Part shown: positions 11,199 through 54,726 of the stretch, in pieces | Layout: each line of letters starts with the position of its first letter | How positions within the stretch are numbered: the first letter of the stretch is position 1 | Assembly (NCBI RefSeq): GCF_018327705.1 | Contig: NZ_BNEM01000001.1 | Location: 1,798,001 to 1,862,000, forward strand | DNA length: 64,000 bases | Origin: Catellatospora sp. TT07R-123 | GTDB lineage: Bacteria; Actinomycetota; Actinomycetes; Mycobacteriales; Micromonosporaceae | Reading direction: 5' to 3' | Notes under the pieces: generated by a model | Databases searched by the model: none | Told to the model about the DNA's origin: nothing | The model's input: only the letters and a program-made list of their open reading frames with translations | Program-made: the position numbers and the translations under genes

Positions 11199-11446
11199 GG
11201 TGTCCTCCTGATCGGGCGGCGGCTGCCGCGCGGTTCTGATCCTGCTCGGATCCGCGCCGTCCGGCCGCCGTCAGGCGGACAGGTTCGCGCTGCGGCCGGA
11301 CAGGCGGAGGTGCCGCCGGTCACGTTCCCTGGGCACGTCAAGAGGTGAGCGCCCCTCCCGGCGCTGGGCACGATGGGCTGGCAGCGAACCGTTCGCGCCG
11401 CGGCCCGGCCTCGTACGGTCGCGGATCTGGACCCGGAAGGTGCGGC

Positions 11447-14151: not shown

Positions 14152-15333
14152 TCAGATGTAGAGCGTGTTGGGCTCCAGGCCGCAGGCGACGCGGCCGTAC
14201 AGCTCCAGGCCGTTGGCCGGGTGCAGGATCGCGTGCAGCGACAGCACCTCCAGGTCGCGCGCGATGCGCTGGATCGGCACGTCGTGGTACGCCGAGGACG
14301 CGCCGCTGGCCGTCTTCAGGATGTCGACGGCCTCCTTGGCCAGCTGCACCGCCCGGCTGATGTCGACGCGGACGCGGGCCCGCTCCTCCATCGTCCACGC
14401 CTCGCCGCTGACGCCCTTGGCGTCGAGCGTGGACGCGGCCCGGTAGATGTGGAACTCGGCCTCGTCGATGCGCACCGACGCCTCGGCGACCTGCAGGTGC
14501 GTGATCGGGGCGTCGGCCTGGCTCTCGTACGTGGTGTAGGTGATCTTGCGGCCGGGCAGGCGCTCGAAGAACGCCTCGCGCGCCGCCTTGGCCAGTCCGA
14601 GCACCGTGCCGGTGGTCGACGTGGCGGCCGTCAGCAGCATCGGGGTGCGGTAGACGGGCACGTCGGCGTTGGTCTTGGACGCGTACTGCTCGTGCAGCAC
14701 CGGGCCCATCGGCAGCACCCGCTGCGCCGGCACGAACAGCTCGGCCGCCGCGGCGGTGACGCTGCCGGTGCCGCGCAGGCCGGTGGTGTCCCAGTCGTCG
14801 ATGATCTGCAGCTCCGACGCCGGGACCAGCGCCATGACCGGCATCATCCCGCCGTCGGGGGTGGGCGTCACGGCCACCAGCGAGTTCCAGTGGCTCTGCT
14901 GCACGGCGGTGTTGAAGGCCCACTTGCCGCTGACGACGTAGCCGCCGTCGACCGGGATCGCCGGGCCGCCGGGGCTGAGCAGCCCGCACACCCGCACGTC
15001 AGGGGTGGCGAACACCTCGTCCTGCACCTCGTCCGGGAACAGGCCGACCAGCCACGAGCAGATCGACCACACCGACAAGGTCCACGCGGTCGAGCCGTCG
15101 CCGCGGCCCACCTGGGTGATGACGTCGACCAGCGAGCGCAGGTCCGCCTCGTACCCGCCGAAGCGCGACGGGGCCCGCAGGCGCAGCAGGCCGGCGCCGG
15201 TCAGCGCCTCGACCGACTCGTCGGCGATCCGCCGGTTCTGCTCGCCCCAGGCCGCGTTGCGGCGCAGCAGCGGCACCAGGTCCGACGCGCGCTGCGCCAG
15301 CTCGGCCGCGGTGGGCACAGTGGTGAGTTCCAT
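14152..15333 (-). CDS. acyl-CoA-dehydrogenase-fold flavin-dependent monooxygenase (paralogue 1)
   Basis: A 393-aa group D flavin monooxygenase (HsaA/acyl-CoA dehydrogenase fold) that would hydroxylate an aromatic or carrier-bound substrate using FMNH2/FADH2 from a separate reductase. It shows RFGGYEADLRSLVDVITQVGRGDGS near the N-terminus, WDTTGLRGTGSV in the middle and HAILHPANGLELYGRVAC near the end. It closes with EPNTLYI, as does the paralogue at 48671; the one at 53527 closes EPNTPFI. It is the last gene of the minus-strand operon. No flavin reductase gene was recognised in the window. Confidence 0.85.
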   Translation of the reverse strand: MELTTVPTAAELAQRASDLVPLLRRNAAWGEQNRRIADESVEALTGAGLLRLRAPSRFGGYEADLRSLVDVITQVGRGDGSTAWTLSVWSICSWLVGLFPDEVQDEVFATPDVRVCGLLSPGGPAIPVDGGYVVSGKWAFNTAVQQSHWNSLVAVTPTPDGGMMPVMALVPASELQIIDDWDTTGLRGTGSVTAAAAELFVPAQRVLPMGPVLHEQYASKTNADVPVYRTPMLLTAATSTTGTVLGLAKAAREAFFERLPGRKITYTTYESQADAPITHLQVAEASVRIDEAEFHIYRAASTLDAKGVSGEAWTMEERARVRVDISRAVQLAKEAVDILKTASGASSAYHDVPIQRIARDLEVLSLHAILHPANGLELYGRVACGLEPNTLYI

Positions 15334-15422
15334 GGGGTCCTTCCTTCATGAACACGGCAGGCCGCCCGGACGCTCCGTTCCGGGCGGCCTGAGGGAGTGG
15401 AGGCCGTGGGGGGCCGCGCCGG

Positions 15423-15842
15423 TCAGACGGCGCGGATGGGGGTGTTCTGGTACGCGGTGATGAGCCACTCACCGTCCTTCTTGGCCAGCAGCCAGCTGGC
15501 GCGGATGGCCCGCTCCGCCGTGACGTCCTCGTCGCCGGGCGCCAGCACGCCGCCGCGGGTGATGACGAGAACGGCGTTGGCGGCCAGCGGCTTCACGGCC
15601 AGCGGCGTGCCGGTGACACGGGTGCCCTTGAACGGCCCCGCGAAGGCCTTCGCCATGAAGTCGTGCACCTCGGCACGGCTCTTGAGGAAGATGTCGTCGG
15701 GCAGGATCAGGGTGCCGTCCTCGGTGAACACGGCGGCGAAGGCGTCAGCGTCGTTCTTGGCCCAGGCCTCGATGATCCGCTGCGGCACCTTGCTCACCGC
15801 GGCGAGGTCGGCATCGGTGATGACGGTCGTCCCGTCGCTCAT
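15423..15842 (-). CDS. SnoaL/NTF2-fold protein of the SgcJ/EcaC type
   Basis: A 139-aa cone-shaped alpha+beta barrel protein. The helix IIEAWAKNDADAFAAVFTEDGTL and the end strand ASWLLAKKDGEWLITAYQNTPI are typical of the TIGR02246 (SgcJ/EcaC) group of the NTF2-like superfamily. SgcJ occurs in the C-1027 enediyne cluster, where its precise role is unclear to me. It lies in the operon between the dioxygenase (49 bp upstream) and the flavin monooxygenase. It could bind or isomerise a pathway intermediate. The family assignment is firm, the function is not. Confidence 0.82.
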   Translation of the reverse strand: MSDGTTVITDADLAAVSKVPQRIIEAWAKNDADAFAAVFTEDGTLILPDDIFLKSRAEVHDFMAKAFAGPFKGTRVTGTPLAVKPLAANAVLVITRGGVLAPGDEDVTAERAIRASWLLAKKDGEWLITAYQNTPIRAV

Positions 15843-15891
15843 GATGGTCGTCCTTTCTAGACGATCTCTTGCCGGGCAGTCCGGCCGGGCG

Positions 15892-16779
15892 CTAGCCCAG
15901 CGCGGGCTGCTTTTCCTGGCCCTGGTCGAACAGGGCCGGCTCGAAGTCCGGGTCCACCAGCAACCGGTGGGGGTCCTGCATCTCGTACCAGCCGACGCCC
16001 GGCGGGCACCGGTCGTAGCCGAGCAGGCGCTGCATCTCCTCGGGCAGTCCCAGCACCGTCTCGCGCGGGACGGCCAGGTACTGGTTCTCCTCCTGACGCA
16101 GGTTGCCCAGGTCGTAGGAGACGGTGAGGCTGGTGCGCGGCTGGTCGGTGGTGTTGGCCCCGCCGCCGTGGTAGACGCCGCCCAGCCAGAGCAGGCCCGA
16201 GCCGGCAGGCATGGCGGCGGGGATGGCCTCGGCGTAGCGGGGGGCCCGCTCGTCGTCCCAGTGGTGGCTGCCCGGGATGACCAGGGTGGCGCCGTTGGGC
16301 GCCGTGAACTCGCTCATGGCCAGCATGAGCTGTACCCGCGTGGTCGGCCCCGGGTGGCGGCGCAGGTGCAGCGAGTCGTCCCGGTGCAGCGGCTGCTTGC
16401 CCTGGCCCGGGTCGATCTGGATGGCCTGGGTGGCACTGATCTGGATGTTGGGGGTCATCTCGATGCGCGCCTGCCCCACCCACATGTGCACGGGCTTCTC
16501 CATGATCCGCCGTGACGCGCCGAGGTACTGCGGCTGCATGAACACGGCGGGCATGTGGGCGGTGCGCCGGAACAGCGACGACACCCGCCGGGTCAGGTGG
16601 CCGTCGTAGCCGGTCTCGCTGTAGCGGCCCCGGTCCAGGTACGGCCCGAGGTCGTCCCACAGCCCCTTGAGGACGGCGGCGTCGACGAAGTTCTCGATGA
16701 TCACCGCGCCCTCGCGTTCGAGGATCTCCACCACGTCGTCGAGCGGCGTGTCAGGGGTAACGTGAATCAGCTCTGCCAT
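15892..16779 (-). CDS. phytanoyl-CoA dioxygenase-family Fe(II)/2-oxoglutarate oxygenase
   Basis: A 295-aa non-haem iron oxygenase. The iron ligands are visible as H-x-D in QPLHRDDSLH and the distal His in GGVYHGGGANTT, followed by the 2-oxoglutarate-binding Arg in QPRTSLTVSYD. A substrate hydroxylation (for example beta-hydroxylation) or desaturation is likely, possibly on the thioester held by the adjacent carrier protein. The ATG at 16779 follows AGAGAGGTGCAGTGAG. It is 29 bp downstream of the free-standing PCP gene in the operon. Confidence 0.88.
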   Translation of the reverse strand: MAELIHVTPDTPLDDVVEILEREGAVIIENFVDAAVLKGLWDDLGPYLDRGRYSETGYDGHLTRRVSSLFRRTAHMPAVFMQPQYLGASRRIMEKPVHMWVGQARIEMTPNIQISATQAIQIDPGQGKQPLHRDDSLHLRRHPGPTTRVQLMLAMSEFTAPNGATLVIPGSHHWDDERAPRYAEAIPAAMPAGSGLLWLGGVYHGGGANTTDQPRTSLTVSYDLGNLRQEENQYLAVPRETVLGLPEEMQRLLGYDRCPPGVGWYEMQDPHRLLVDPDFEPALFDQGQEKQPALG

Positions 16780-16808
16780 CTCACTGCACCTCTCTTGTGC
16801 CTGAAGGC

Positions 16809-17078
16809 TCAGAGCGCGGCGCCGGTCGCCTTCGCCACCACGTCGCGGGTGAACGTCGCCAGATCGGGGTCCTCGAACAGGTCGCCCATGTCGACGTTGA
16901 CGCCGATCTCCTCCTCGATCCGGGCCACGATCTGGACCGCGGAGATCGACTGCCCGTTCAGCTCGAAGAACGTGGCACCACGCGAGTTCGAGGGCACGTC
17001 GAGCACGGAGTTCCAGATCGCCTCGACCCGCTGCTCGATCTCGGCGGGGCTGAGCGCGGCGCGCTGGTTGGTGTCCAT
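16809..17078 (-). CDS. free-standing peptidyl carrier protein (SgcC2-like)
   Basis: An 89-aa carrier protein with the phosphopantetheine site in FFELNGQSISAVQIVARIEEE, where Ser in NGQS would carry the arm, followed by the helix-3 segment LFEDPDLATFTRDV. The ATG at 17078 has a near-ideal AGGAGG. Its place beside a free-standing condensation enzyme and a tyrosine aminomutase mirrors SgcC2, which holds beta-tyrosine during tailoring in C-1027 biosynthesis. The NRPS upstream has its own PCP, so the pathway has two carriers. Confidence 0.9.
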   Translation of the reverse strand: MDTNQRAALSPAEIEQRVEAIWNSVLDVPSNSRGATFFELNGQSISAVQIVARIEEEIGVNVDMGDLFEDPDLATFTRDVVAKATGAAL

Positions 17079-17178
17079 ATGAATCCTCCTGCCGATACGA
17101 ATACGAATTTATGCTTGTCGCTGGGTGGCGGGGCCGCACCTCTGGTCGTGCGGATCAGGGCACGACCCCGCCGGTGGT

Positions 17179-18552
17179 TCAGAGCCCGGCCAGCGGGGCG
17201 TCGGGTGACGCCAGCAGGCTGCCCAGCAGCGACACGTACTCGGCCGTGCTCCGGTCGAGCGTCTGCGTCGTGAACAGGTGGGCGCTGTAGCCGATCGCGC
17301 CCACGATCTCCTCCGTCGGCCCCAGGTGCAGCGACCACAGCACCCCGTCGGGGATGTCCGAGCCGATCTCCTGCGTGATGACCCGGCGCCAGATCGCGCT
17401 GAACTCCAGGCCGCCGATCTGCTCGCGCTCCATCACGAACGGCGGCTGGATCACCTGGAACAGGGCCGGGGCGACCCCGGGCGCGGCCAGCGACGCCATC
17501 AGCTCCGGCGCCTCCTGGAGCACCACCAGCAGCGGCACCTCGTGCGAGTACGCCCCGAGGCAGGTCGCCCGGGTGCGCGCCACCACGTCGCGGAAGGTCG
17601 CGCAGCCGGTCAGGTCCGTGCGCAGCGGCACGAAGTTGAAGAACGACCCGACCGTCTTCTGGAACCGCGCCTGGCCGCGGCCCGGCGTGAACGTCGGCAC
17701 CACGATGTCCTGCGACCCCGTCTGCCGCGAGGCCAGCACGTTGAACGCCGCCAGCAGCACCATGAACGGCGAGCTGTGCGTGCTCTCGGCCAGCCGGGCG
17801 GTGCCGGTGCGCAGCTCGGCGCCGGCGAGGAACCGGTACCACCCGGTGATCGCCTCTTCCTCGGCGCCCCGGGCCTTGTCCGCCGGCACGGTCAGGATCC
17901 GGGCGCCGTCCAGCGTCTTGCGCCAGTACTCCCGGGCCCGCTGCACCGACGGGGCGCCGAGCTGCTCCAGCTGGGCGACGGCGTACTCGCCGTACTGCGC
18001 GGCCGGCTCCAGGCCGGGCTCGCGGCCCTGCACCCGTGCCGCGTAGCACGAGGCCACGTCGCGCATGACGACCTGCATCGACCACGCGTCGGCGGCGGTG
18101 TGGTGGGTGACCAGCACCAGCACCGAGTCGGTCCGGTCGAACCGGCCGAGCACCGCCCACAGCAGCGGCGACTGCCGGATGCTGTACGTCTGCGCCTCGA
18201 TCTCGTTGACCAGTTCCTCCGCGACCCGGCCGCGGTCGGCCGGGTCGACGCCCGGCAGGTCGCGCACCGTCAGCGACACCGCGGACGGCGGGGACACCCG
18301 CTGGCCGGAGCCCTCCTCGCCGCGCACGATGGTGGTGCGCAGCGACTCGTGCCGGGCGGCCACGTCGTCCAGCGCCTGGCGCAGCGCGGCGAGGTCGACC
18401 TCGCCGCCCACCCGCCAGCCGTCGGCGACGATGTAGCGGGGACCGAACGGGCCCTCCGCGTCCCCGCGGTCGAACAGGCGCAGGAACTCCTGCTGAAGCG
18501 ACAGCGGAAGGTCGACGGCGGCCGGGGCGGCCGCGGCTTCGGAGATGCTCAT
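17179..18552 (-). CDS. free-standing NRPS condensation enzyme (SgcC5-like)
   Basis: A 457-aa single C domain that would join an aminoacyl-S-PCP to a nucleophilic acceptor as an amide or ester. The catalytic motif is present as HHTAADAWS, with both His and Asp kept and the usual Gly replaced by Ala. Later motifs include VGSFFNFVPLRTDL. The ATG overlaps the stop of the aminomutase gene (ATGA), so the two are coupled. SgcC5 in C-1027 is the closest model: it esterifies the beta-tyrosyl unit to the enediyne core. The acceptor here is unknown. Confidence 0.9.
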   Translation of the reverse strand: MSISEAAAAPAAVDLPLSLQQEFLRLFDRGDAEGPFGPRYIVADGWRVGGEVDLAALRQALDDVAARHESLRTTIVRGEEGSGQRVSPPSAVSLTVRDLPGVDPADRGRVAEELVNEIEAQTYSIRQSPLLWAVLGRFDRTDSVLVLVTHHTAADAWSMQVVMRDVASCYAARVQGREPGLEPAAQYGEYAVAQLEQLGAPSVQRAREYWRKTLDGARILTVPADKARGAEEEAITGWYRFLAGAELRTGTARLAESTHSSPFMVLLAAFNVLASRQTGSQDIVVPTFTPGRGQARFQKTVGSFFNFVPLRTDLTGCATFRDVVARTRATCLGAYSHEVPLLVVLQEAPELMASLAAPGVAPALFQVIQPPFVMEREQIGGLEFSAIWRRVITQEIGSDIPDGVLWSLHLGPTEEIVGAIGYSAHLFTTQTLDRSTAEYVSLLGSLLASPDAPLAGL

Positions 18553-20156
18553 CGCAGCACCACCCCCGCCTGGTCGAGCGCCTTCACGAAGGTGCCGCGG
18601 CCGAGCTCGGCGGCGATCAGCTCGATGTCGTCGGCCATGTACCGGTCGCCGTCCAGGGTCGGGACCAGCGAGCGGACCGTCTCGTAAGTGACCGTGCCGG
18701 CCGGGCTGAGCCCGTTGGCGCGGCCGGAGACGTCCACGGCCTGGGCCGCCGCCAGGAACTCCAGCGCCAGGATGATGTTGTTGTTGTTCAGCACGCGGCG
18801 GGCGTTGCGGGCCGCGATCAGGCCCATGCTGACCACGTCCTGGTTGTCGCCGTTGGACGGCACGCTCTGCGCGCTGGCGGGGCCGATCGTCCGGTTCTCG
18901 GCGACCATGGCGGTCGCCGGGTACTGGGCACCCGCGAAGCCGCTGTTGAGGCCGGGCTCGCCCTTGATGAGGAACTCGGGCAGGCCGTAGCTGAGGTGGC
19001 GGTTGAGCATCCGGTTGGTGCGCCGCTCCGACAGCACGCCGAGCTGCGTCAGGGCGATGGTCACGAAGTCCATCACGAACGCGATCGGCTGGCCGTGGAA
19101 GTTGGCCCCGTGGAAGATCTCCTTGCCCTCGAAGAACAGCGGGTTGTCGTTCGCCGAGTTCAGCTCGATGTCGAGCTTGGTGTACGCGTGGCCGAGCGTG
19201 TCGCGCACCGCGCCGATCACCTGCGGGATCGCCCGCAGCGAGTAGGCCTTCTGCAGGTACACGTCGGTGCGGTGGACCTCGCCCACCTCGCCCTTGCTGT
19301 CGGCGACCTGGCGGCGCAGGTCGGCGTGCTCGACGGTCAGCTTGCTGCCGTCCATGAGCCGCCGCATGTTGAAGGCGCTGTCGATCTGCCCCGCGTGCGG
19401 GCGGGCGATGTCGTGGCCCTCCGGCTGGAACGGGCTCAGCGAGCCCTGCAGCGTCTCGATGACCAGCGCGGCCGCGATCTCGGCGTGGCGGGCCTGGTTC
19501 ATGGCGTGGTGGGCCACCAGGGCGCCCAGGCCGGTCATGGCCGAGGTGCCGTTGATGAGCGCCAGGCCCTCCTTGAACTTCAGCTCCAGCGGCTCGATGC
19601 CCAGCGAGCGCAGCACCGGGCCGGTCTCGACCTTCTTGCCGTCGCGCAGCAGGTAGCCCTCGCCGATCAGCGAGCTGGCGATGTGCGCCAGCGGGGCCAG
19701 GTCGCCGCTGGCGCCCAGCGAGCCGATCTCCGGAATGGCCGGGATGAGGCCCGAGTTCAGGTACAGCGCGATCCGCTCCAGCACCTCCGGACGTACCGCG
19801 GAGTGGCCCTTGGCCAGCGCGTTCAGCCGGGCCGCGACGATCGCCCGCGCCTCGTCCTCGGTGAAGAGCGGACCCACGCCGGCGCTGTGGCTGCGCACCA
19901 GGTTGGTCTGCAGTTCCGTCTCCTTGGACGTCTCCACCAGCATGTAGATCATCTCGCCGTAGCCCGTGGTCACGCCGTAGACGGGGATCTGCTGGTGCAC
20001 GATGTCCTCGAAGATCGCGCGGCTGGCCGCCGCGCGTTCGAGCACCTTCGGCGACAGCGAGCACGGAGCCCTGTCCTCGGCGACCCTGCGCAGGCTCGCC
20101 ACGTCCAGGCTCTCGCCGTCGAAGGCGACCGGGGCTTCGGTACCGATCATGGTCAT
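18549..20156 (-). CDS. MIO-dependent tyrosine 2,3-aminomutase (SgcC4-like)
   Basis: A 535-aa member of the histidine/phenylalanine ammonia-lyase family. The MIO prosthetic group would form from Ala149-Ser150-Gly151 in EIGSLGASGDLAPLAHI. The catalytic-loop Tyr60 lies in YGVTTGYGEMIYM, a segment that, as I recall it, is nearly the same in the C-1027 tyrosine aminomutase SgcC4 (539 aa). IELNSANDNPLFF and NGDNQDVVSMG are further conserved active-site stretches. It should convert L-tyrosine to beta-tyrosine. The ATG at 20156 has GGAG seven bases upstream and follows the NRPS stop by 4 bp. Ammonia-lyase activity alone is a less likely alternative. Confidence 0.92.
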   Translation of the reverse strand: MTMIGTEAPVAFDGESLDVASLRRVAEDRAPCSLSPKVLERAAASRAIFEDIVHQQIPVYGVTTGYGEMIYMLVETSKETELQTNLVRSHSAGVGPLFTEDEARAIVAARLNALAKGHSAVRPEVLERIALYLNSGLIPAIPEIGSLGASGDLAPLAHIASSLIGEGYLLRDGKKVETGPVLRSLGIEPLELKFKEGLALINGTSAMTGLGALVAHHAMNQARHAEIAAALVIETLQGSLSPFQPEGHDIARPHAGQIDSAFNMRRLMDGSKLTVEHADLRRQVADSKGEVGEVHRTDVYLQKAYSLRAIPQVIGAVRDTLGHAYTKLDIELNSANDNPLFFEGKEIFHGANFHGQPIAFVMDFVTIALTQLGVLSERRTNRMLNRHLSYGLPEFLIKGEPGLNSGFAGAQYPATAMVAENRTIGPASAQSVPSNGDNQDVVSMGLIAARNARRVLNNNNIILALEFLAAAQAVDVSGRANGLSPAGTVTYETVRSLVPTLDGDRYMADDIELIAAELGRGTFVKALDQAGVVLR

Positions 20157-20160
20157 CTGT

Positions 20161-23100
20161 TCACTCCATCGTTGCGTCGGAACTGGAGGCGGGTCCGGAC
20201 AGGGCGCGGTCGACGCGCGCGGCCATACCGGCGAGACTGGGTGCGGCGAGGCAGTCCGCGATCGGCACGGGTACGCCGACCGTGTCCTGCACCCGCAGGG
20301 CGAACCGGGGCAGCAGCAGCGAGTGCCCGCCCACGGCGAAGAAGTCGTCTGCCAGGTCGTAGTCCCGCGGTCCGAGCAGCTCCGCCCAGATCCGGGCGAC
20401 GACCAGCTCGGACGGGGAGCGGGGCGGCCCCGAGGTCGCGGCCGCGACCTCGCGCGGCGCGGGCAGCGCCCGCCGGTCGACCTTGCCGGTCGCGCCGCGC
20501 GGCAGCGGCTGGGCCATGAGGTGGAACGACACCGGCAGCAGCACCGCGCCGAACCGCCGCCGCAGGTGCGCGCGCCACACTGGCGGCCCACCGGACTCGG
20601 CTCCGGCGACGGCCACGACGTACGCCACCAGGCGGTTGACCAGCCCGTCGCCGTCGCGCACCGGCACCACCACACATTCGGCCACCGACTCGTGGGCGTC
20701 GAGCGTCGACTCGATGTCCCCGAGCTCCAGCCGGTGCCCCTGCAACTTGACCTGGTGGTCGAGCCGGCCGCGGAACTCGAGCAGGCCGTCCCACCGCCGT
20801 CGCGCGAGGTCGCCGGTACGGTAGTACCGGCCCCCCTCGTCGCGTTCGGCCCGGCCCGCGATCGCCGCGAACACCGGATCATCCGGGTCGCCGCCGAGGT
20901 AGCCAGGCGTGACGTAGGGGCTGCGCACGACGATCTGGCCGGTGACCCCCGTGGGGCACAACCGGTCCTCGTCGTCGAGCAGCAGCACCTGCCGCCCTGG
21001 AATGGGCGACCCGATCGGGGTCGCCCCGGACACCTGGCCGTCGATGTCGTGCCAGGTCGCCGCCACCGTCTCGGTGGGGCCGTAGAGGTTGGCCAACCGG
21101 GTCGCGGGCAGGGCCGCGCGCAGTCCGTTGACCAGGTCGCCCGGCAGGGCCTCCCCCATCAGCAGCAGCCGGTCGAGGGGCGGTGCGTCGCCGCCGGACT
21201 CGGCGACGGCGCGCAGCAGGCGCCGCGCGAAGCTCGGCACGGTCTGCAGCGCCGTCACCCGGTGCTCGACCAGCCACCGCACCAGCCCCTCCGGGTGCGG
21301 GCGCACCTGGTCGGGGACCAGGTGCAGCGCCGCGCCGCCGACCAGGGCCGCGAACACCTCGCACAGCGCCGGGTCGTGCTCGGGGGCGACCCACTGGGCC
21401 ACACGGGCCCCGGCGCCGAAGCCGAACGCGCGCGCCATCCACGAGGTGAACTGGGCCAGGGCGGCGTGGGTCTGCGGCACGCCCTTGGGCCGGCCGGTCG
21501 AGCCGGACGTGTAGGCGACGTACGCGACATAGGCCAGTTCCACGGGCACCGGCTCGGCCCCGGGCCCGCGCGGGGCCGCCAGCAGCTCGGGCACGTCGAG
21601 AATCCGGCCGAAGCCCTGCACGCAGAACCAGTCGTGCACCTCGTCGGAGCCGTCGGCCAGCAGCCACACCGGGCGCAGGTCGCCGAGCACCTGCCGGGTG
21701 CGCTGGCCGGTGTCGTCGGCGGCCAGCCAGCAGAAGTGGGCGCCCGCGCGCAGCACGCCCAGCAGGGCCGCGATCCGCGCCGGGCCGGTCCGCATGCGCA
21801 CCGCCACCGGCCGCCCGGCGGCCCCGGTCAGCGCCGCGGCGATCCGCGCCGACCAGTCGTCGAGCTCGGCGTACGTGATCGTGCCGCCCTCGCCGGTGAC
21901 GGCCACCGCGGCGGGCCGCTGCACGGCGTGGCGGCGCACCAGCTCGGTGACCGGCTCGCGCGGCGCGCCGACGGCGGGATCGGCCTCGGCCCGGTCGGTG
22001 TCGTCCAGCGGCAGGCCGGCCAGCGGCCGGTCCGGCTCCCGCACCGCCCCGAGCAGCAGGGTGTGCAGCTGGCCGAGCAGCAGCCCGGCCGCCGTGGGGT
22101 CGAACAGGCCGTCGCGGTACTCCAGATGCCCGGCCGCCGCGGCGCTGACCTGGTCCAGGACCAGGGTCAGGTCGGCCCTGACCGCACCGCCGGCGGCGTG
22201 GCGCTCGCGCACCGCCGCACCCGCCAGCCGCAGCGTCGCCCGCTGCTCCTCGGGCAGCACCACCATCGCGTCGCACCACGGCACCCGCCCCGGCTCGCGC
22301 TCGGGGTTGACGGCCCGCACGATCTCGGCGAGCGGCACGTCGCCGTGCGCGTACGCCTGCCCGAGCGCACCGGACACCCGGCGCAGCAGCTCGCGCAGCG
22401 TCGGCTTCCCGGACAGGTCGGCCGCGAGCACCACCGGCTCGGTGCACGGACCGACCAGGTCCGCGGGCACCTCGCGGCGCCGGCGCAGCGTGCCGACGCT
22501 GACCGTGTCGACGGCGGCGTGGCGGTGCAGCAGCGCCAGGAACCCGGCCAGCACCACCTCCTCGGCCGTCGTGCCGGTGGCGTCGGCGATCCGGCGCAGG
22601 TCGTGCCCGAGCCCGTCACCCCACCAGAACGGCGTGCTGCGCCCCTGCCAGTGCAGGCCCGCGGGCCGCGGCTGGTCCGCCGGCAGCGCCAGGGCCGACG
22701 GCACCGCGGCCAGCCGCCCGGCCCACCAGTCCAGCCGCCCGGCGAATCCGTCGTCGGTCCGCTCCGCCCGCCGGTGCTCGGCGTACTCGGAGAACGGAAC
22801 GTCGACCGGCTTGAGCTCGGCGCTGGTGCCGCCGAGGGCGGCGGCGTATCCGGCGGACAGCTCGTCCAGGATGATCGACACCGACCTGCCGTCGGCGACG
22901 ATCCGGTGCAGCACCAGCAGGACCCGGTGCGCCTCGGCCGCCTGCCGCAGCACGATCAGGCGCGCGGCGGGCCCGCCGGCCAGGTCGAACGGCGCCGCCG
23001 CGACCTCGGCCGCCCACCGGTCGGCGTAGGCCTGGTCGACGCCGCGCAGGTCGATCACCGTGGGCTCGATGCGGGCCCGGCCGTCGATGCGCAGCCCGAC

Positions 23101-23334
23101 GCCGCCGTCCGCCTCGGCCAGGCTGCCGCGCAGGACCTCGTGCCGGGCCACGACGGCGTGCCAGGCGGTGCGCAGCGCCTCCGGGTCGAACGGGCCGCCG
23201 ACCTCGAAGTCCCGGCACTCGTGGAACGACGGCGCCGCCCCGGCCGGCGTGGCGGCGAGCTGCTGCAGGAACCACAGATCCTGCTGCGCGGGGGTGGTGG
23301 CGGCGATGGCGCCGGCACTGTGCGCGATAGGCAT
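20161..23334 (-). CDS. NRPS module C-A-PCP, predicted beta-tyrosine activating
   Basis: A 1057-aa module. The condensation-like domain (about 10-430) has LHRIVADG at 142-149, where the catalytic second His of HHxxxDG is Arg144, so it may be inactive. The A domain (about 470-960) has YTSGSTGRPKG near 608, NLYGPTE, YRTGDLAR and the Lys motif ATGKVDR near 950. The PCP has GGHSL with its Ser near 1005. By alignment to the PheA pocket I read the specificity residues as D-P-C-Q-L-M-L-A-A-K, close to the code I recall for SgcC1 (beta-tyrosine). The ATG at 23334 has GGGAG upstream; an in-frame upstream start would add 33 residues. Confidence 0.92.
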   Translation of the reverse strand: MPIAHSAGAIAATTPAQQDLWFLQQLAATPAGAAPSFHECRDFEVGGPFDPEALRTAWHAVVARHEVLRGSLAEADGGVGLRIDGRARIEPTVIDLRGVDQAYADRWAAEVAAAPFDLAGGPAARLIVLRQAAEAHRVLLVLHRIVADGRSVSIILDELSAGYAAALGGTSAELKPVDVPFSEYAEHRRAERTDDGFAGRLDWWAGRLAAVPSALALPADQPRPAGLHWQGRSTPFWWGDGLGHDLRRIADATGTTAEEVVLAGFLALLHRHAAVDTVSVGTLRRRREVPADLVGPCTEPVVLAADLSGKPTLRELLRRVSGALGQAYAHGDVPLAEIVRAVNPEREPGRVPWCDAMVVLPEEQRATLRLAGAAVRERHAAGGAVRADLTLVLDQVSAAAAGHLEYRDGLFDPTAAGLLLGQLHTLLLGAVREPDRPLAGLPLDDTDRAEADPAVGAPREPVTELVRRHAVQRPAAVAVTGEGGTITYAELDDWSARIAAALTGAAGRPVAVRMRTGPARIAALLGVLRAGAHFCWLAADDTGQRTRQVLGDLRPVWLLADGSDEVHDWFCVQGFGRILDVPELLAAPRGPGAEPVPVELAYVAYVAYTSGSTGRPKGVPQTHAALAQFTSWMARAFGFGAGARVAQWVAPEHDPALCEVFAALVGGAALHLVPDQVRPHPEGLVRWLVEHRVTALQTVPSFARRLLRAVAESGGDAPPLDRLLLMGEALPGDLVNGLRAALPATRLANLYGPTETVAATWHDIDGQVSGATPIGSPIPGRQVLLLDDEDRLCPTGVTGQIVVRSPYVTPGYLGGDPDDPVFAAIAGRAERDEGGRYYRTGDLARRRWDGLLEFRGRLDHQVKLQGHRLELGDIESTLDAHESVAECVVVPVRDGDGLVNRLVAYVVAVAGAESGGPPVWRAHLRRRFGAVLLPVSFHLMAQPLPRGATGKVDRRALPAPREVAAATSGPPRSPSELVVARIWAELLGPRDYDLADDFFAVGGHSLLLPRFALRVQDTVGVPVPIADCLAAPSLAGMAARVDRALSGPASSSDATME

Positions 23335-23589
23335 CCGGGTGACTCCCGCCTGTACGGTGACCGTATTCGTTCCCACGTCTGTGGGGACCGATTCGCCGAA
23401 AGGGCCGCCGCAATGCGGAATGGCGCTTGCCAATAACCCTTGCGAATCGGTTACGGATACTGAGTCTGTCCGTATACGACAGTGCCGTCATCTTCTCCAT
23501 TGCGGAGCGGAGAGTCAGGTCATGGCACTGCTGGCGCCTGAATGCGCACGCGCGGAGTTGTGCCGGAGGCGGATATCCGAAAAGAGGAC
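23335..23589. promoter_or_regulatory. upstream region of the NRPS with a 10-bp inverted repeat
   Basis: This gap is less GC-rich than its surroundings and contains an inverted repeat ACCGATTCGC (23387-23396) and GCGAATCGGT (23442-23451), 45 bp apart. It is the largest gap inside the minus-strand operon and could hold an internal promoter and regulator site for the NRPS-aminomutase-condensation segment. No hexamers could be assigned with confidence. Confidence 0.35.
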
Positions 23590-24654
23590 TCAGGCGGCCG
23601 ATCGCCGCAGGTTCTCCCGCACTTCCAGCATGGCGGCGGCGACCTCGTACAGCCGCGCGACGGCGAACCCGCCGGCGAATTCGGGCAGCACCGCCGAGAG
23701 TGCGGCACTCGTCCGGCCGCCGAAGGCGACCGCCGTCTCGCCGACGTGGATGCCCTCGCGGCGGCCGGCCCGGTCGTTCCAGGCGACGGCGGCGGCGCGG
23801 TCCCAGCCCGGGGGCAGGTCCAGGCCCAGCGTCCCGTCCGGGGCCAGGCACACGGGATAGCCGCCGGGCAGCCCGGCGGGCCCCGGCAGGTTCGTGGCGA
23901 CCTCACCCCGGGCCAGGTCGAGCAGCAGCAGCGCGGCCGCGTGCCCGGTGACGGCGTTGAGTTCCGGACGGGCCGATCCCCGCAGCGCCGCCAGCGCGGC
24001 CGTGACGTCACCGACCGGCTCGTCGCCGACCCAGGCCAGGACCTCGTCGGCGGGCGCCTCGGGGCGGTTGAGGTGGATGTGGTGGGCCAGGACCCGCAGG
24101 TGGTCCGCCGGTTTGAGGCCCAGCGCGCCGCGCAGGCCGGCGGCCAGCAGCGCGACGTTGCCGACACCCGCGGTGATCGGCAGCCCGAGTCCGGCCAGGA
24201 TCGGGTTGACCGCGTCCGGGAAGCAGGCGTTGAGCAGCCGCGCGGGCACCCCGCTGTCGCGCAGCGCGGCCGCGACCTGCGCGGCCAGCAGCGCGTGCAG
24301 TGGCGCGGTCGCGGCGAACCCGGCCGCCGACAGCAGCTCGGTCCAGCGCGACGGGTGGGTCAGCTGCTCCCAGGGCGACTGCAACGACGCGCAGTGCAGC
24401 ACCCAGTCGGGTGCGGCCGCCCACAGCACCTCGGCCAGCGCGGCGGTGTCGGCGAGGTCGGCGGTGGCGGCCCGGAAGCCCGCCGGGGTGCCGCTCAGCG
24501 CCGCGCGCATGGCGGCGATGGCGGCGACCTCGGCGGATTTCGCGGGGTCACGGGCGACGACGGTCACGGTCAGCGGCCGGTCGGCGAGCACTGCCAGGGA
24601 GAAGCAGATGTTGCGGGCCAGCGACCCGCTGCCGACCACGACCACTGAGTCCAC
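23590..24654 (-). CDS. Rossmann-fold NAD(P)-binding protein, function unrecognised
   Basis: A 354-aa protein starting with a dinucleotide-binding fold (VVVVGSGSLARNICFSLA) and TVVARDPAKSAEV, like the N-terminus of saccharopine- or opine-type dehydrogenases. Residues about 100-350 hold no motif I recognise; DWVLHCASLQSPWE and NACFPDAVNPILAGLGLP look like active-site loops. The start is a GTG six bases after the stop of the FemX-like gene. It belongs to the panD to NRPS segment and may reduce or couple an amino-acid-derived intermediate, but this is inferred only from context. Confidence 0.7.
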   Translation of the reverse strand: MDSVVVVGSGSLARNICFSLAVLADRPLTVTVVARDPAKSAEVAAIAAMRAALSGTPAGFRAATADLADTAALAEVLWAAAPDWVLHCASLQSPWEQLTHPSRWTELLSAAGFAATAPLHALLAAQVAAALRDSGVPARLLNACFPDAVNPILAGLGLPITAGVGNVALLAAGLRGALGLKPADHLRVLAHHIHLNRPEAPADEVLAWVGDEPVGDVTAALAALRGSARPELNAVTGHAAALLLLDLARGEVATNLPGPAGLPGGYPVCLAPDGTLGLDLPPGWDRAAAVAWNDRAGRREGIHVGETAVAFGGRTSAALSAVLPEFAGGFAVARLYEVAAAMLEVRENLRRSAA

Positions 24655-24660
24655 GTCAGT

Positions 24661-25821
24661 TCACCGTCCGTTGAGGAACTCGTCCAGGTCTATCATACGT
24701 ACGCCGTCGACGCCGGGGCTGGCCGCCGTCACCGAGGTGCGGGCGGGCCGGTCGGCGTCGGCGAAGTAGACCGCCTCCAACCGCCCGTCGGGGGTCAGCC
24801 CGAACATTGGCGTGTCCACCAGCAGGTCGCGCACGGCAGGAGTGTCGCGCTGCACCCGCAGCCACAGCGCCTTGCCGCCCTGGTGGTCGACCGGCAGCCC
24901 CACCGTCGGGTGGAACCGGCGCTTGAACTGGAACACCCCGACCCCCGGGAACGACTCCCCGCCCGCCAGCCCGAGCCAGCGGACGCCGTTGTCGCAGGCC
25001 CACTCGATGGCCAGGTAGTACACGGCCTTCACGGCCCCGCTGCGGTAGTGCGCCTCGTCGCCGTCGAGCACGCCGAGCAGCCGCATGGTGAGGCTGCGGG
25101 TCTCCGGCTCCCACCGGCACAGCACCCCCGCCACCGGCTTGGCCTCCTCGGTGACGAAGAACAGGCGCCCCTGTCCGAACAGGCACTCCTGCGCGGTCAC
25201 CCAGTCGGTGCTGCGGGTGTCGGCGCCGTGCCGGCCCGCCATCGTCGGCAGGTGCATCCGCTCCCAGAAGTGCAGCAGGTCCTCGGGGTCGCGGGTGCGC
25301 TTCCAGGCCCAGTCGCGCTCGCGGCGCAGCTTGGCGAACTGCCGCCGCTCGTTGCCGGAGACGCGCTTGCGCATCACCTCCGGGTCCTCGTCCACCTCGA
25401 TGTTGAGGTCGATCCGGTACGGCAGCAGCACCGACCGCTCCGTCGGCAGGGACCGGGCGCGGGCGGTGGAGCAGCCCACCACCAGCAGGTCGGCGTCCTG
25501 CTGGTCGAGCAGGCCCGGCCAGCGCCGCGGCGGCAGGTCGACGATCTCGGCCGGGCCGCCGCCGTGCTGCTCCACCTGCGCGCGCAGGTGGGTCAGCACG
25601 TAGTGCGGGCCCTCGGCGAAACCCCGGTAGGCGAGGCTGACCCCGCCGGGCGTGCCGTCCGGCGGGGCGGCCGTGATCAGCCGGTTCAGGTACCGGCGGC
25701 CGGGACGGCTGTCCCACCACCCGTGCAGGCGGGCCGCCGAGCCCGCGCCGCTGGTCCAGTCGTAGCGTCGACGCGCGAGGGCCCGCCGCAGCGCGGTCGG
25801 GCGCGGGGTCACCGCGCCCAT
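24661..25821 (-). CDS. FemX/BioF2-like GNAT acyl- or aminoacyltransferase
   Basis: A 386-aa protein with the GNAT fold typical of peptidoglycan-bridge and BioF2-like enzymes: a basic segment VSGNERRQFAKLRRERDW near residue 165, then LFFVTEEAKPVAGVLCRWEP, YYLAIEWACDNGVRWLGLAGGE and FKRRFHPT, a usual C-terminal signature of this group. Such enzymes can transfer an aminoacyl group from tRNA or a carrier to an amine. The ATG at 25821 overlaps the upstream gene by 13 bp; a GTG at 25812 with a GTGA overlap is an equally good start. It is related in type to the GNAT half of the 43868-46177 fusion. Confidence 0.8.
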   Translation of the reverse strand: MGAVTPRPTALRRALARRRYDWTSGAGSAARLHGWWDSRPGRRYLNRLITAAPPDGTPGGVSLAYRGFAEGPHYVLTHLRAQVEQHGGGPAEIVDLPPRRWPGLLDQQDADLLVVGCSTARARSLPTERSVLLPYRIDLNIEVDEDPEVMRKRVSGNERRQFAKLRRERDWAWKRTRDPEDLLHFWERMHLPTMAGRHGADTRSTDWVTAQECLFGQGRLFFVTEEAKPVAGVLCRWEPETRSLTMRLLGVLDGDEAHYRSGAVKAVYYLAIEWACDNGVRWLGLAGGESFPGVGVFQFKRRFHPTVGLPVDHQGGKALWLRVQRDTPAVRDLLVDTPMFGLTPDGRLEAVYFADADRPARTSVTAASPGVDGVRMIDLDEFLNGR

Positions 25822-27170
25822 GCGGCCTCGCCGGCGGCCAGCAGCACCTCGTGCAGGGCCGCCGCGTCGTCCACGGTGGTGAGGCGGTCTGCCGGGATCG
25901 CCCGGTAGTCGTCGGTCCCGTAGCTGCCGGACCCGTGCACGACCACCTCGTCGGCCTCGATCAGGCCGCGCTCGCAGGCGTTGACGACACCGGTCAGCGC
26001 CATCACCAGCGACCACTCGCGCAGCTTGCGCGGGTCGGCCGGAAGCTGGATCGACGTGCCCGACAGCATCTGGCGGATCTGCGGGTAGCGCTCCAGGCAC
26101 TCGTACAGCGACACGACGATGCCGCCGCCGCCCTGGGCCGCGATGATGCTGTTCATCTCGGCCGAGGTGACCGGCGAGCGGGTGTAGAACGTCGGTTCCA
26201 GGTTCTCGGCCGGGTCGTAGGTGGCCGCCGGGAAGTGCGGGTCGGTGTCCTGGCGGTACAGGAACGACTTGGGGTCGTAGGTGTAGGCGGGCAGGTTCGC
26301 CGGATCGGCGCTGCCGTGGTAGAGGCTGAGCACCATGTCCGGGGTGGCCAGGTGCTGGACCAGGAAGTAGCCCGGACCGGCGTCGCCGCCGTCGAGCACC
26401 CGGCCCAGGTGGTGGCCGAGCAGGCCGTACGCGCTGGAGACCGAGTGGGCGTGCACGCGCCGCGACCCCGGCCGGGTCGGGAGCAGGTCGCGCTCGGCGA
26501 AGGCCCGCACGGTGTCGGCGGGCCGGTAGTTGTCCAGGTTCAGCGAATACCACACGTTGATGCCGTGCCGGTCGCGCAGGAGCGGCGCGGCGGTGCCGAC
26601 GGCCTGGTCGGCGATCGTCTTGACGTCGGAGGGGACGTCGCTGTGGTAGACGCACATCGGGTTGCGGCCGCTCAGCGGCGCCTCGCTCAGCGCCGAGGAC
26701 CACAGCTTCTCCCGGGCGATGCCCGGCACCACGGTCACGATCTGAAGCTGGTCGGGGGTCACCAGGCCGTGCCGGTACGCCCGCAGCACCGCGTCGCGCA
26801 GCGCCGTGGCCTTGTTGGCCGACGAGGGCGTCACGATCATGATCGGCTCGCCGGTCGCCTGGATCTGCCGGACCGCCCGAGCGACCATCACCAGCGACGC
26901 CATGGTCTTGGTGGTGCGGGTGCCCGGGTTGCGGGTCAGGTCGAGCAGGGTCAGCTCGCGCCCGGCCACCTCGCCGAGGCGGTCGAAGGACAGCTCGCCC
27001 GCGCCCAGGAAGCCGACCACGGCGTCGGTGGGGGCGGGCAGCTCGAACGCGGGGTGGAAGCCGGTCGCCCGGTGGGACGCGCCGACGTGCCGCAGCGCGG
27101 CCTGGATCTCGTCGTACCAGCGGACCAGTGCGGCAACCGCGGACGTGGTGGTGGGGGTGGTCGTCGTCAT
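25809..27170 (-). CDS. unrecognised 453-aa protein, possibly PLP fold-type II-like
   Basis: I do not recognise a defined family with certainty; it may be what databases call DUF6002. Sequence features are LTLLDLTRNPGTRTTKTMASL, a segment IMIVTPSSANKATALRDAV whose S-x-N-K pattern recalls the lysine loop of threonine-synthase-like PLP enzymes, and a C-terminal glycine-rich turn VVHGSGSYGTDDYR that could bind phosphate. The N-terminus is Thr-rich and has no signal peptide. It lies 10 bp after panD and overlaps the FemX-like gene, so the three are co-translated. A role in making or processing an amino-acid building block is inferred from context. Confidence 0.75.
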   Translation of the reverse strand: MTTTTPTTTSAVAALVRWYDEIQAALRHVGASHRATGFHPAFELPAPTDAVVGFLGAGELSFDRLGEVAGRELTLLDLTRNPGTRTTKTMASLVMVARAVRQIQATGEPIMIVTPSSANKATALRDAVLRAYRHGLVTPDQLQIVTVVPGIAREKLWSSALSEAPLSGRNPMCVYHSDVPSDVKTIADQAVGTAAPLLRDRHGINVWYSLNLDNYRPADTVRAFAERDLLPTRPGSRRVHAHSVSSAYGLLGHHLGRVLDGGDAGPGYFLVQHLATPDMVLSLYHGSADPANLPAYTYDPKSFLYRQDTDPHFPAATYDPAENLEPTFYTRSPVTSAEMNSIIAAQGGGGIVVSLYECLERYPQIRQMLSGTSIQLPADPRKLREWSLVMALTGVVNACERGLIEADEVVVHGSGSYGTDDYRAIPADRLTTVDDAAALHEVLLAAGEAAWAR

Positions 27171-27180
27171 GGCAGCCCGG

Positions 27181-27597
27181 TCAGACGTGCACGACGTCGC
27201 CACGGACAGCGTCCATGTGGGCACCCGGCGCGGCGAGGTCGGTGCCGTGCTCCACCACGCGGTTCAGCTCGTCGACGAAGACCACCCGCGGCTTCACCGA
27301 GGCGGCCTCGTGGTCGGGCACCAGCCCGTAACAGATGATGATGACCAGGTCACCTGGCTTGATCAAGTGAGCGGCCGCGCCGTTGATCCCGATGACGCCG
27401 GAGTCACGCGGCCCCTCGATGGCATAGGTGGACAGACGCGCACCGTTGGTCACGTCCACGATGTCGACCTTCTCACCCGGTAGCAGACCCGCCGCGTCCA
27501 TCAGGTCGGCACTGATCGTCACAGAACCCACGTAGTGCAGATCGGCCTGGGTGACCGTGGCACGGTGGATCTTCGACCTCAGCATCTCGCGAAACAT
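27181..27597 (-). CDS. panD: aspartate 1-decarboxylase PanD
   Basis: A 138-aa pyruvoyl enzyme that converts L-aspartate to beta-alanine. Self-cleavage between Gly and Ser is expected in [20 protein letters not shown]. Other family segments are [35 protein letters not shown] and [10 protein letters not shown]. The ATG at 27597 has GAGGAG seven bases upstream. No panB or panC accompanies it; it heads a biosynthetic sub-operon, so it probably supplies beta-alanine to the secondary metabolite and not only to coenzyme A. Confidence 0.95.
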
Positions 27598-27772
27598 GGC
27601 AAGGCTCCTCACTTATGTGGTGGGAAGACCCCGCCGGGGCGCATGCTTCGCGAACCCCCGCGAGATCTCACCCAGCTTCGGCCAGTGCACCGGTCGGTTC
27701 TACTTTGAAAGTGCTCAGTTGTGACAAAGAATGGACAGGATTATGAACGTGTGAACGGGGTATGCGCGCGGG

Positions 27773-29341
27773 TCAACGGTTGAGCATCCCCGCGACCACC
27801 TGACGCAGGTCGTCTGAGGACGACAGGTCGGGCACGGTCCAGCCGTCCAGGTCGTACTCGCTCATGCACTGGTCCACGAACGCCTTGTACCGGTCGAGCT
27901 GGCCGGTGGCCATCTGCGCGTGCAGCAGCTCGACGCGCACGTTCTCGTGGTTGCCGGAGTAGTTGCGCTCGTACAGCTCGTGCCGCCCGCCGAACTCGGT
28001 CCCGACCGCGTCCCACAGCAGCTTCATCACCTTCACCCGCTCCTCGGCCGAGACGCCGTTCGAGCCGCGCAGGAACCGGTCCAGGTACGGCCGGATGGCG
28101 GGGTTCTTGAAATCCTCGGCACTGGAGTTCACATAGATGAGGCCGCTGGCCACGTCCTGCTGGATGATCTCCTTGATCCGCGGGTAGCCCAGCTGCATGA
28201 ACCAGCGGTACGCCTGCCCGTACTGCGGGTTGGGCAGCAGCGCGCCGTTCTTCCACTGCGCCGGGTTGCGCACGGAGGCGTCCGACAGTGCCCAGAACAG
28301 GTTGCGCCAGGCCAGCACCTCGCCCAGCCGGCTCTGCACCCCGCGGAAGTCCTTGGTGCCGGTCAGCTCCACCGCCTTGGCCAGCAGGCCCGCGATGAAC
28401 TCCAGCTTGACCGCCAGCCGGGTGCAGCCGTGGAAGGTGAACCGCTCGGCGAACCCCGACTGCGGCGCGAACATCTGCACCTTGCCCAGGTCACCGTAGA
28501 TGAATACGTTCTCCCACGGGATCAGCACCTTGTCCAGGATGAAGATGGTGTCGTTCTCGTCCATCCGCGACGACAGCGGGTAGTCGAACGGGCTGCCCAT
28601 CACCTCCGCCGTCGCCGTGTACGACGGCCGGCAGATCAGCTTCAGCCCGGGTGCCCCCATCGGCACCGTCGCCACCAGGGCGAACTCCTTCTTGCGGATC
28701 GGCAGCCCGAAGTGGGCGATGAAGTTGTAGTGGGTCAGCGCCGAGGCGGTGGCCACCACCTTCGCCCCGCTGACGATCAGGCCCGCATCGGTCTCCTTCT
28801 CCACCCGGATGTAGACGTCGGCGAGTTCCTCGATCGGCTTGTTGCGGTCCACCGGCGGGTGCACGATGGCGTGGTTCCAGTACAGGACCTTCTCCTGCGA
28901 CTCCTGGTACCAGCGGCGCGCGTTGTCGCTGTACGGAGCGTAGAAGTCGGCGTTGGCGCCCAGCGTGCCCAGGAACGACGCCTTGTAGTCGGGGCTGCGG
29001 CCCATCCAGCCGTAGCTCATGCGAGCCCAGGCGGCGATCGCGCGCTGGTCGGCGATGAGGTCCTCGACGCTGCGCGGGGTGCGGTAGAACGGATGGGTGA
29101 ACCCGGTCGAACCGGTGTCGGTCGGCGTGGTCAGCACGCCGGCGTTGGCCGGGTCGTGCAGCGCGTCGTACAGGCGCGCCGTCATCCGGACCGGGTTGCG
29201 GAACGCGGGGTGCGTGGTGACGTCCTTGACGCGGTCGCCGTAGAGGAAGATCTCCCGGTCGTCGCGAAGGCTCTCGATGTACTCGTCGCCGGTCAGCGGT
29301 CGGGTCACCCGGCCTGCGGGCGCGGCCTGCTCGTCGGTCAT
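27773..29341 (-). CDS. HpaB/SgcC-like FADH2-dependent aromatic 3-hydroxylase
   Basis: A 522-aa two-component flavin hydroxylase of the 4-hydroxyphenylacetate 3-monooxygenase family, at full family length. It starts [18 protein letters not shown] and has [35 protein letters not shown] and [11 protein letters not shown], all typical of HpaB. SgcC of C-1027 belongs here and hydroxylates carrier-bound beta-tyrosine at C-3. With an aminomutase and carrier in the same operon, the same reaction is likely. The ATG at 29341 has GAGGAGGG upstream. No flavin reductase partner is seen nearby. Confidence 0.92.
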
Positions 29342-33161: not shown

Positions 33162-33177
33162 CGGGTTGGAGGCGACC

Positions 33178-36912: not shown

Positions 36913-36985
36913 TGCAGGTTCCTTCCTCGAACGCGGAGATCGTGGGGGGAGTCCGCCACGCTCACTGCGTGCCGGAAACAAAGAT

Positions 36986-37023
36986 GAGGAGGGTATGTGG
37001 ACGGTGTCCACAATACCCTCCTC
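36986..37023. promoter_or_regulatory. 38-nt near-perfect inverted repeat upstream of the MFS exporter
   Basis: GAGGAGGGTAT and ATACCCTCCTC (11 bp) enclose GTGGAC and GTCCAC (6 bp) around GGT, with one unpaired base. It is 74 bp upstream of the MFS start and 79 bp past the end of the upstream gene. The A/T-containing GTGGAC-GGT-GTCCAC core looks like a TetR-type operator, but a 17-bp stem could also terminate the FAD monooxygenase transcript. Confidence 0.55.
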
Positions 37024-37102
37024 GATGGCCGGGGCGGAACCACCCATGACCGACAAATGGTCCCGAGTGGCCTCACGTCGCCGTCCTGAGCCGAGTCCAC
37101 CG

Positions 37103-38479: not shown

Positions 38480-38514
38480 GTCCAGTCTCCTATCGGTGCG
38501 GCCCGGCGCCGCGG

Positions 38515-54711: not shown

Positions 54712-54726
54712 TCGAAAGGCGTGGCG

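Follow-up and report, generated by a model that had tools for sequence, protein, structure and literature searches.

We analyzed a 64,000-nucleotide stretch of the Catellatospora sp. TT07R-123 genome (hereafter the window, C1:1798001-1862000; the genome comprises 9.17 Mb in two contigs), with genes called from codon-position GC content plus translation and with a family scan that took in some of the genes beyond 47 kb. Between 29.3 and 14.2 kb the window contains a minus-strand run of twelve genes, from an HpaB-type hydroxylase to an HsaA-type flavin monooxygenase, which we refer to as the operon. It combines genes resembling those of the beta-tyrosine arm of the enediyne C-1027 (Streptomyces globisporus) with a quartet encoding PanD, a DUF6002 protein, a GNAT/FemAB-like protein and a dehydrogenase, which sits between the hydroxylase gene and a non-ribosomal peptide synthetase (NRPS) gene of condensation-adenylation-thiolation (C-A-T) type.

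The operon opens with a 522-residue HpaB/SgcC-type FADH2-dependent hydroxylase (27773..29341, minus strand, as are all the operon genes; PF11794 and PF03241) that scored 715 bits against TIGR02310, under the cut-off of 885, and whose best-ranked solved structure was the chlorophenol-4-monooxygenase entry 4oo2 (897.4 bits), which we take to be SgcC of C-1027. Beyond the quartet, the C-A-T gene (20161..23376, with starts at 23334, 23376 or 23433 all possible) is followed by the gene of a 4-methylideneimidazole-5-one (MIO) tyrosine 2,3-aminomutase with an Ala-Ser-Gly motif (18549..20156), which reached 943.9 bits against TIGR03832 (cut-off 501 bits) and matched 2rjr/2ohy at 832.8 bits, the tyrosine aminomutase 2rjr ranking best. 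Next are a free-standing SgcC5-type condensation enzyme (C enzyme; 17179..18552, PF00668) with an intact HHTAADAW motif, matched best by the type-II C-domain entry 4znm (427.8 bits), presumably SgcC5 of C-1027, and a free-standing SgcC2-like carrier protein (16809..17078, PF00550) with its serine in an NGQS motif. The run closes with a PhyH-type dioxygenase (15892..16779, PF05721 101 bits), an SgcJ homologue (15423..15842, TIGR02246 112.7 bits) whose best solved structures were 4ovm and 4i4k (SgcJ), and the HsaA-type flavin monooxygenase (14152..15333, PF08028), which scored 247 bits against NF045629, under its cut-off of 450.

Together, these matches support the assignment of the operon as a C-1027-type beta-tyrosine arm, with predicted aminomutase, adenylation, carrier, HpaB hydroxylase and SgcC5-type components. 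A first-pass annotation of this DNA had already seen such an arm and placed counterparts of SgcC, SgcC1, SgcC2, SgcC4 and SgcC5 here; family and structure matches located all five on the minus strand, with the amendment that the A domain taken as the SgcC1 counterpart is not free-standing, being part of the C-A-T protein. That annotation had overlooked the PanD, DUF6002, GNAT and dehydrogenase genes; the PhyH, SgcJ-homologue and HsaA-type genes are farther downstream. It had also reported no SgcC3-type halogenase, and Trp_halogenase (PF04820) had no match in the whole genome; thus the operon is not a full C-1027 arm.

It is exceedingly improbable that the aminomutase is instead a histidine or tyrosine ammonia-lyase of primary metabolism, even though it belongs to the same superfamily and two hutH models gave it 523 bits, just under their cut-offs of 524 and 539. 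Its TIGR03832 score points away from such a role, as do a second gene of the aromatic-lyase family elsewhere in the genome (C1:3503455) and the surroundings of its relatives. In neighborhoods of about 20 kb around one aminomutase in each of 32 other genomes of the host's family, a carrier was found within about 10 kb in 25, an A domain in 26, a C enzyme in 24 and an HpaB enzyme in 19 (at least 40% identity across half the length), while PhyH occurred in seven and an FAD oxidoreductase in 17. On this score and context a primary-metabolism lyase was rejected, in keeping with the first-pass reading of the gene. Aminomutases over the cut-off were found in 33 of 354 genomes of the family, the host's own included, and in none of ten other genomes of the genus, and a search of viral contigs gave no match.

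The first-pass annotation had reported no polyketide synthase (PKS) or enediyne cassette, and the window indeed held no match to five cassette proteins (flavin reductase, enediyne PKS (PKSE), thioesterase, DUF1702 protein and UnbV). The apparent lack of a PKS arises because the window ends before the cassette, which is located on the same contig 10-28 kb past the right edge. The genome-wide search for an enediyne PKS that the annotation had suggested did find one, 19.8 kb past that edge, and the cassette begins closer still, with UnbU/UnbV from 10.4 kb. The annotation's PKS-free small beta-tyrosine conjugate, which it had tied to there being no cassette immediately outside the window, is consequently displaced as the leading explanation and is retained below as a rival.

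A KS search of the genome led to a 1,929-residue open frame at C1:1886742, which on reading 1,858-1,918 kb of the contig was annotated as a PKSE of 1,924 residues (C1:1881831-1887605) with Pfam KS, AT, KR and DH domains; no Pfam family matched its ACP and PPT parts. It is accompanied by a thioesterase (C1:1881383-1881844), best matched among solved structures by 4i4j (248 bits; presumably SgcE10) and then by CalE7, a flavin reductase (C1:1880821-1881357) with 4r82/4hx6, which we take to be SgcE6, as its best solved relatives, and a cytochrome P450 (C1:1879469-1880824). Two DUF1702 proteins (UnbL; C1:1887678-1889859, 434 and 452 bits) were the sole DUF1702 matches in the genome, and UnbV (C1:1873442-1875424, UnbV_ASPIC 48 bits, cut-off 23) was likewise the sole match to its family. 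UnbU is a membrane-type open reading frame (ORF) adjoining UnbV, and was named because of this position and because its homologues adjoin UnbV in relatives. The set of PKSE, thioesterase, UnbL, UnbV and UnbU by which an enediyne cluster is recognized is thus represented here, as judged from sequence matches.

Based on these findings, we consider it likely that the operon serves as the beta-tyrosine arm of an enediyne cluster, probably of the 9-membered class and C-1027-like in its logic, which extends from about 11 kb in the window to roughly position 1,896 kb of the contig (approximately 87 kb). An excerpt of a 2016 survey gives the presence of E2 and the absence of R3 as the rule for 9-membered enediynes (PMC5181780). 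One argument for a single cluster comes from the hydroxylase, a type that needs a reductase: no SgcE6-type reductase was found in the window, and the cassette carries one. In C-1027 a single reductase, SgcE6, is held to serve SgcC (PMC6165268).

The arrangement in relatives also argues for one cluster, as the beta-tyrosine genes lie 19-32 kb from the PKSE in both Phytohabitans flavus and Streptomyces sp. CB00455. In P. flavus the beta-tyrosine genes are at 482-494 kb (aminomutase 76%, HpaB 80%, C-A-T 48%, peptidyl carrier protein (PCP) 60% and C enzyme 51% identity) and the cassette at 508-528 kb (PKSE 71%, at 519-525 kb, and thioesterase 85%). In CB00455 both sets are on one 132,759-base contig, and the start of the PKSE is some 19 kb away from the aminomutase (aminomutase 74%, HpaB 82%, PhyH 69%, the second HsaA-type enzyme 57%, FAD oxidoreductase 64%, C enzyme 48% and PKSE 64%). 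The same excerpt of the survey places this strain among those predicted to make a 9-membered enediyne and carrying beta-amino-acid genes (PMC5181780), and in having such genes near an enediyne cassette it resembles the locus described here. Cassette genes were also found in five of the 32 aminomutase neighborhoods (L215, L216, L218, L219 and L222) within the approximately 20 kb read.

Several observations weigh against a single cluster. Between the 5' end of the operon and the PKSE lie 54.5 kb of the contig; the genes in this interval include tailoring-type ones. UnbU had no Pfam match. In a tree built from 36 aminomutase-type sequences with a HutH-type sequence as outgroup, whose bootstrap had not settled, the clade of the window aminomutase (support 100/100) held five sequences from four genomes (G163, G534, G492 and two in G562), which Amycolatopsis arida joined at a weak 81/71. 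Around these nearest relatives we read 140 kb in G163, 120 kb in G534 and, on short contigs, 60 of 70 kb in G492 and 40 of 47 kb in G562, and no PKSE, DUF1702 protein, UnbV or SgcE6-type reductase was found in these stretches. Nor was a PKSE, DUF1702 protein or UnbV found in 100 kb read around the A. arida aminomutase block, the cassette of that strain being on another contig; a flavin reductase (49%) adjoins the block, as does a 61-residue thioesterase-like match, and these may be remnants or the block's own supply. In addition, two Catellatospora species with a cassette had no aminomutase above the cut-off, and the best-matching A domain of CB00455 has the signature DAVQLALLAK, unlike that of the window. 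We read the PKSE-poor blocks as probably split or rearranged enediyne clusters. In G562 the two tyrosine aminomutase genes (L235 and L274) share one 47-kb contig (G562:C292).

These observations could also be explained by two neighboring clusters, in which window 14-44 kb would be an independent beta-tyrosine locus of the A. arida type that makes a small conjugate other than an enediyne, next to a separate enediyne cluster. The four genomes of the aminomutase clade with no PKSE in the stretches read, the distance of the A. arida block from its PKSE, and the recurrence of both HsaA-type enzymes, the FAD oxidoreductase, HpaB, A domain and C enzyme as a unit, to which several loci add PhyH and the major facilitator superfamily (MFS) transporter found at 35 kb in the window, would all fit this arrangement. 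We nevertheless regard it as improbable, since much of the gene set is linked to a PKSE in CB00455 and P. flavus, and neither the window nor the four PKSE-poor stretches supply an SgcE6-type reductase. Moreover, an epoxide hydrolase homologue and two MDMPI pieces lie close to the block in one relative, G534 (which also has a PanD gene 28 kb from its aminomutase). On the left of the operon are an EmrB-type MFS efflux pump (11345..13102, plus strand; TIGR00711 264 bits, 66% in L169) and a TIGR03084 (MDMPI-like) protein (13186..13974, plus strand; 304 bits, 73% in L169). In Catellatospora vulcania and C. coxensis, homologues of both are next to the enediyne cassette, and MDMPI-like homologues adjoin several enediyne cassettes.

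The quartet is the unusual feature of this locus, a beta-tyrosine arm near an enediyne cassette being a known arrangement. It comprises PanD aspartate 1-decarboxylase (27181..27597, 138 residues; TIGR00223 164 bits, cut-off 106; Gly-Ser site present), the DUF6002 protein (25809..27170, 453 residues; PF19465 642 bits), a GNAT/FemAB-like acyl or aminoacyl transferase (24661..25812; Acetyltransf_6, PF13480, 25 bits, cut-off 22) and an NAD(P)-binding dehydrogenase with a lactate/malate dehydrogenase (LDH/MDH)-like fold and no Pfam family (23590..24654). With the starts chosen, the spacing from PanD to the dehydrogenase is a 10 bp gap, a 4-base overlap and a 6 bp gap, and the C-A-T, aminomutase and C-enzyme genes are packed as tightly; there is also a 100 bp gap before the carrier gene. 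The genome has four full-length PanD matches, the operon's included, plus one partial match. Because three further full-length copies exist, the operon PanD is probably not needed for pantothenate.

None of PanD, DUF6002, GNAT or the dehydrogenase was matched within about 10 kb of the 32 other aminomutases (E 1e-5). Searches located the DUF6002 family at 77 named loci; the dehydrogenase lay within about 10 kb in 54 of these, GNAT in 25 and PanD in 19. The order PanD-DUF6002-GNAT-dehydrogenase was also present in Streptomyces griseosporeus, E2N166, CB00455, S. longispororuber and Actinacidiphila paucisporea, as well as in WAC08241 with a weak dehydrogenase match. A TauD-type dioxygenase accompanied six of the 19 PanD loci and a transporter seven, and further loci pair DUF6002 and the dehydrogenase with PKS-NRPS genes. 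A DUF1702 search targeted 50 of the 77 DUF6002 loci and covered 48 genomes (two loci share one genome). An aminomutase search of 48 loci in 48 DUF6002-bearing genomes found one over the cut-off in four, and near DUF6002 (13 kb) only in A. arida. Literature searches found no paper on DUF6002 and, among the matches listed, no cluster joining PanD and an enediyne; Catellatospora and enediynes appeared together in three papers.

Compact Streptomyces-type loci (L062, L063, L065, L066, L090 and L125) were observed to hold a TauD-type dioxygenase, PanD, DUF6002, GNAT and the dehydrogenase, and some of these loci add a class-III aminotransferase, an Asn synthase or a methyltransferase. DUF6002 was also seen in two Pseudomonas genomes (L115 and L128) with a weakly GNAT-like neighbor (33% and 27%).

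The quartet might be a mini-cluster in its own right that was inserted in the operon and whose product has nothing to do with beta-tyrosine. In most of the 77 other loci DUF6002 is accompanied by one or more of the other three genes, including the compact Streptomyces-type set with a TauD dioxygenase and transporter, and gaps of 175 bp before PanD and more than 200 bp after the dehydrogenase set the quartet apart. We think this rather unlikely, as the quartet is inside a same-strand run, between the hydroxylase and the A-domain gene, and in A. arida, independently, DUF6002 and GNAT accompany the same beta-tyrosine genes. Tentatively, and with considerable doubt, we suggest that the quartet recurs, whole or in part, across many actinobacterial loci as a building-block cassette, and that the locus specifies a hybrid enediyne in which beta-tyrosine is joined to a second amino-acid-derived unit from the quartet.

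The family to which the DUF6002 protein may belong was addressed by profile comparison, using an alignment of 57 of the 77 loci plus the window (near-duplicates and odd lengths dropped). Its invariant residues include K88 and N119. In hhalign profile alignments DUF6002 matched one PALP protein of the same genome with 77.5% probability (score 45.2) and a pooled PALP alignment with 35% probability (score 39.1), and in the PALP alignments K88 fell on the pyridoxal 5'-phosphate (PLP) lysine, with N119 falling within the asparagine loop. Scores for ten further single PALP proteins were 13.5-27.0, and those of the 60 control rows, which include about six duplicates and a C-enzyme row that is out of frame, did not exceed 23.6. 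A profile search of the PDB gave no match, and a structure model was poor (predicted local distance difference test (pLDDT) 44.6) and was not used. These data lend moderate support to the notion of DUF6002 as a possible new family of PLP fold-type-II enzymes. For the dehydrogenase, a profile from 37 of the 54 loci plus the window (near-duplicates and odd lengths removed) gave short N-terminal Rossmann matches only in the PDB (best E 4e-4), and the best Foldseek matches of a structure model (pLDDT 84.5) were LDH/MDH enzymes with template modeling (TM) scores of about 0.5-0.6. The pairing of a PLP beta-replacement enzyme and an NAD enzyme is reminiscent of the SbnA/SbnB route to 2,3-diaminopropionate.

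Within the C-A-T protein, the C domain has HRIVADG where HHxxxDG is expected and, because the second catalytic histidine of the motif is lost, is probably not catalytic. Among 29 best-matching relatives from aminomutase loci, the motif was recognizable in 18, in which the second histidine was replaced by R (nine), Q (six), L (two) or A (one) and was never present; the remaining 11 lacked a clear motif, and several of these ORFs have no C domain. Loci with such a replacement in a C-A-T protein near a tyrosine aminomutase include L213, L215, L216, L218, L219, L220, L223 and L226, among others. The ten signature residues of the A domain, placed by motif, are DPCQLMLAAK. The signature began DPCQ with small later changes in 22 of the 29 relatives, four being identical to the window, and DACQ, DAVQ or DAMQ in seven, CB00455 included. 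From gene linkage we infer a specificity for beta-tyrosine. A literature search for an SgcC1 signature found none, and no such signature is used as evidence here.

From these gene families we infer a pathway in which every catalytic step is conditional on family membership. The aminomutase would convert L-tyrosine to beta-tyrosine, which the A domain of the C-A-T protein would load on a carrier. The HpaB enzyme would then hydroxylate the ring of the tethered substrate, with FADH2 from the SgcE6-like cassette reductase and no chlorination, and the PhyH and HsaA-type enzymes may oxidize the beta-tyrosine unit further. The PKSE/thioesterase/UnbLUV set would build the enediyne core, and the epoxide hydrolase of the right flank would open it, giving a diol that the free-standing C enzyme would esterify with the beta-amino acid. 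With low confidence, we propose that the quartet would supply a further small amino-acid-derived unit: PanD could yield beta-alanine or decarboxylate an adduct, DUF6002 as a PLP enzyme could perform a beta-replacement, the dehydrogenase could carry out a redox step in the second unit, and the GNAT/FemAB protein could transfer it as an acyl group.

The top solved-structure matches of the aminomutase, hydroxylase, C enzyme, SgcJ homologue and cassette flavin reductase are C-1027 proteins (presumably so for 4oo2, 4znm and 4r82/4hx6), and the epoxide hydrolase is close to 5f4z and 4i19. Unlike C-1027, the genome has no Trp_halogenase match, the A domain belongs to a C-A-T protein with a C domain that is missing the second histidine, and the PhyH and HsaA-type enzymes and the quartet are added. 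CB00455 differs from the window in its A-domain signature and in having its DUF6002/PanD/GNAT/dehydrogenase set on a 1,700,334-base contig, apart from the aminomutase and cassette. The A. arida block (C14:576-617 kb, L261-L263) has DUF6002, GNAT, PCP, PhyH, two HsaA, FkbM and RibD genes together with the C enzyme, A domain, aminomutase, HpaB and FAD oxidoreductase; unlike the window, its A domain is free-standing, its PKSE is on another contig, and there was no PanD or dehydrogenase match at 556-656 kb.

PanD within a biosynthetic cluster has a precedent in kirromycin and aurodox, where KirD/AurD is presumed to be the beta-alanine source (PMC9361827). That paper gives the motif of the NRPS AurB for beta-alanine as DTLQLGVIWK, unlike DPCQLMLAAK of the only A domain in our operon (PMC9361827). 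The survey excerpt counts 11 enediynes characterized by 2016 (PMC5181780). From the locus we would expect an enediyne whose beta-tyrosine is hydroxylated but not chlorinated and which also bears a second, new unit, and DUF6002 would be an uncharacterized enzyme family recurring in dozens of other loci. Enediynes serve as payloads of antitumor conjugates.

The flanks, described as ordinary in the first-pass annotation, proved otherwise on the right. There, RibD_C and multicopper oxidase genes are followed by an FkbM methyltransferase (33094..33948, plus strand; 61% counterpart in the A. arida block), flavin monooxygenases that include a second HsaA-type enzyme (33991..35247, plus strand; 62% in A. 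arida, 57% in CB00455), MFS pumps that include the transporter at 35320..37128 (minus strand), and an FAD oxidoreductase (37103..38863, minus strand) with weak Pfam matches that is common to aminomutase neighborhoods. Farther on are an acyltransferase, P450s, an alcohol dehydrogenase and an enediyne-type epoxide hydrolase (54721..55896, plus strand; PF06441), whose matches to 5f4z (547 bits) and 4i19 (516 bits) presumably mark it as SgcF/NcsF2-like. Such hydrolases open the core epoxide in enediyne pathways. Adjoining the beta-tyrosine block is a fusion of ATP-grasp and LAL_C2 (amino-acid ligase) domains to a FemAB-like/Acetyltransf_6 domain (43868-46177, minus strand), a candidate for amide formation with the second unit.

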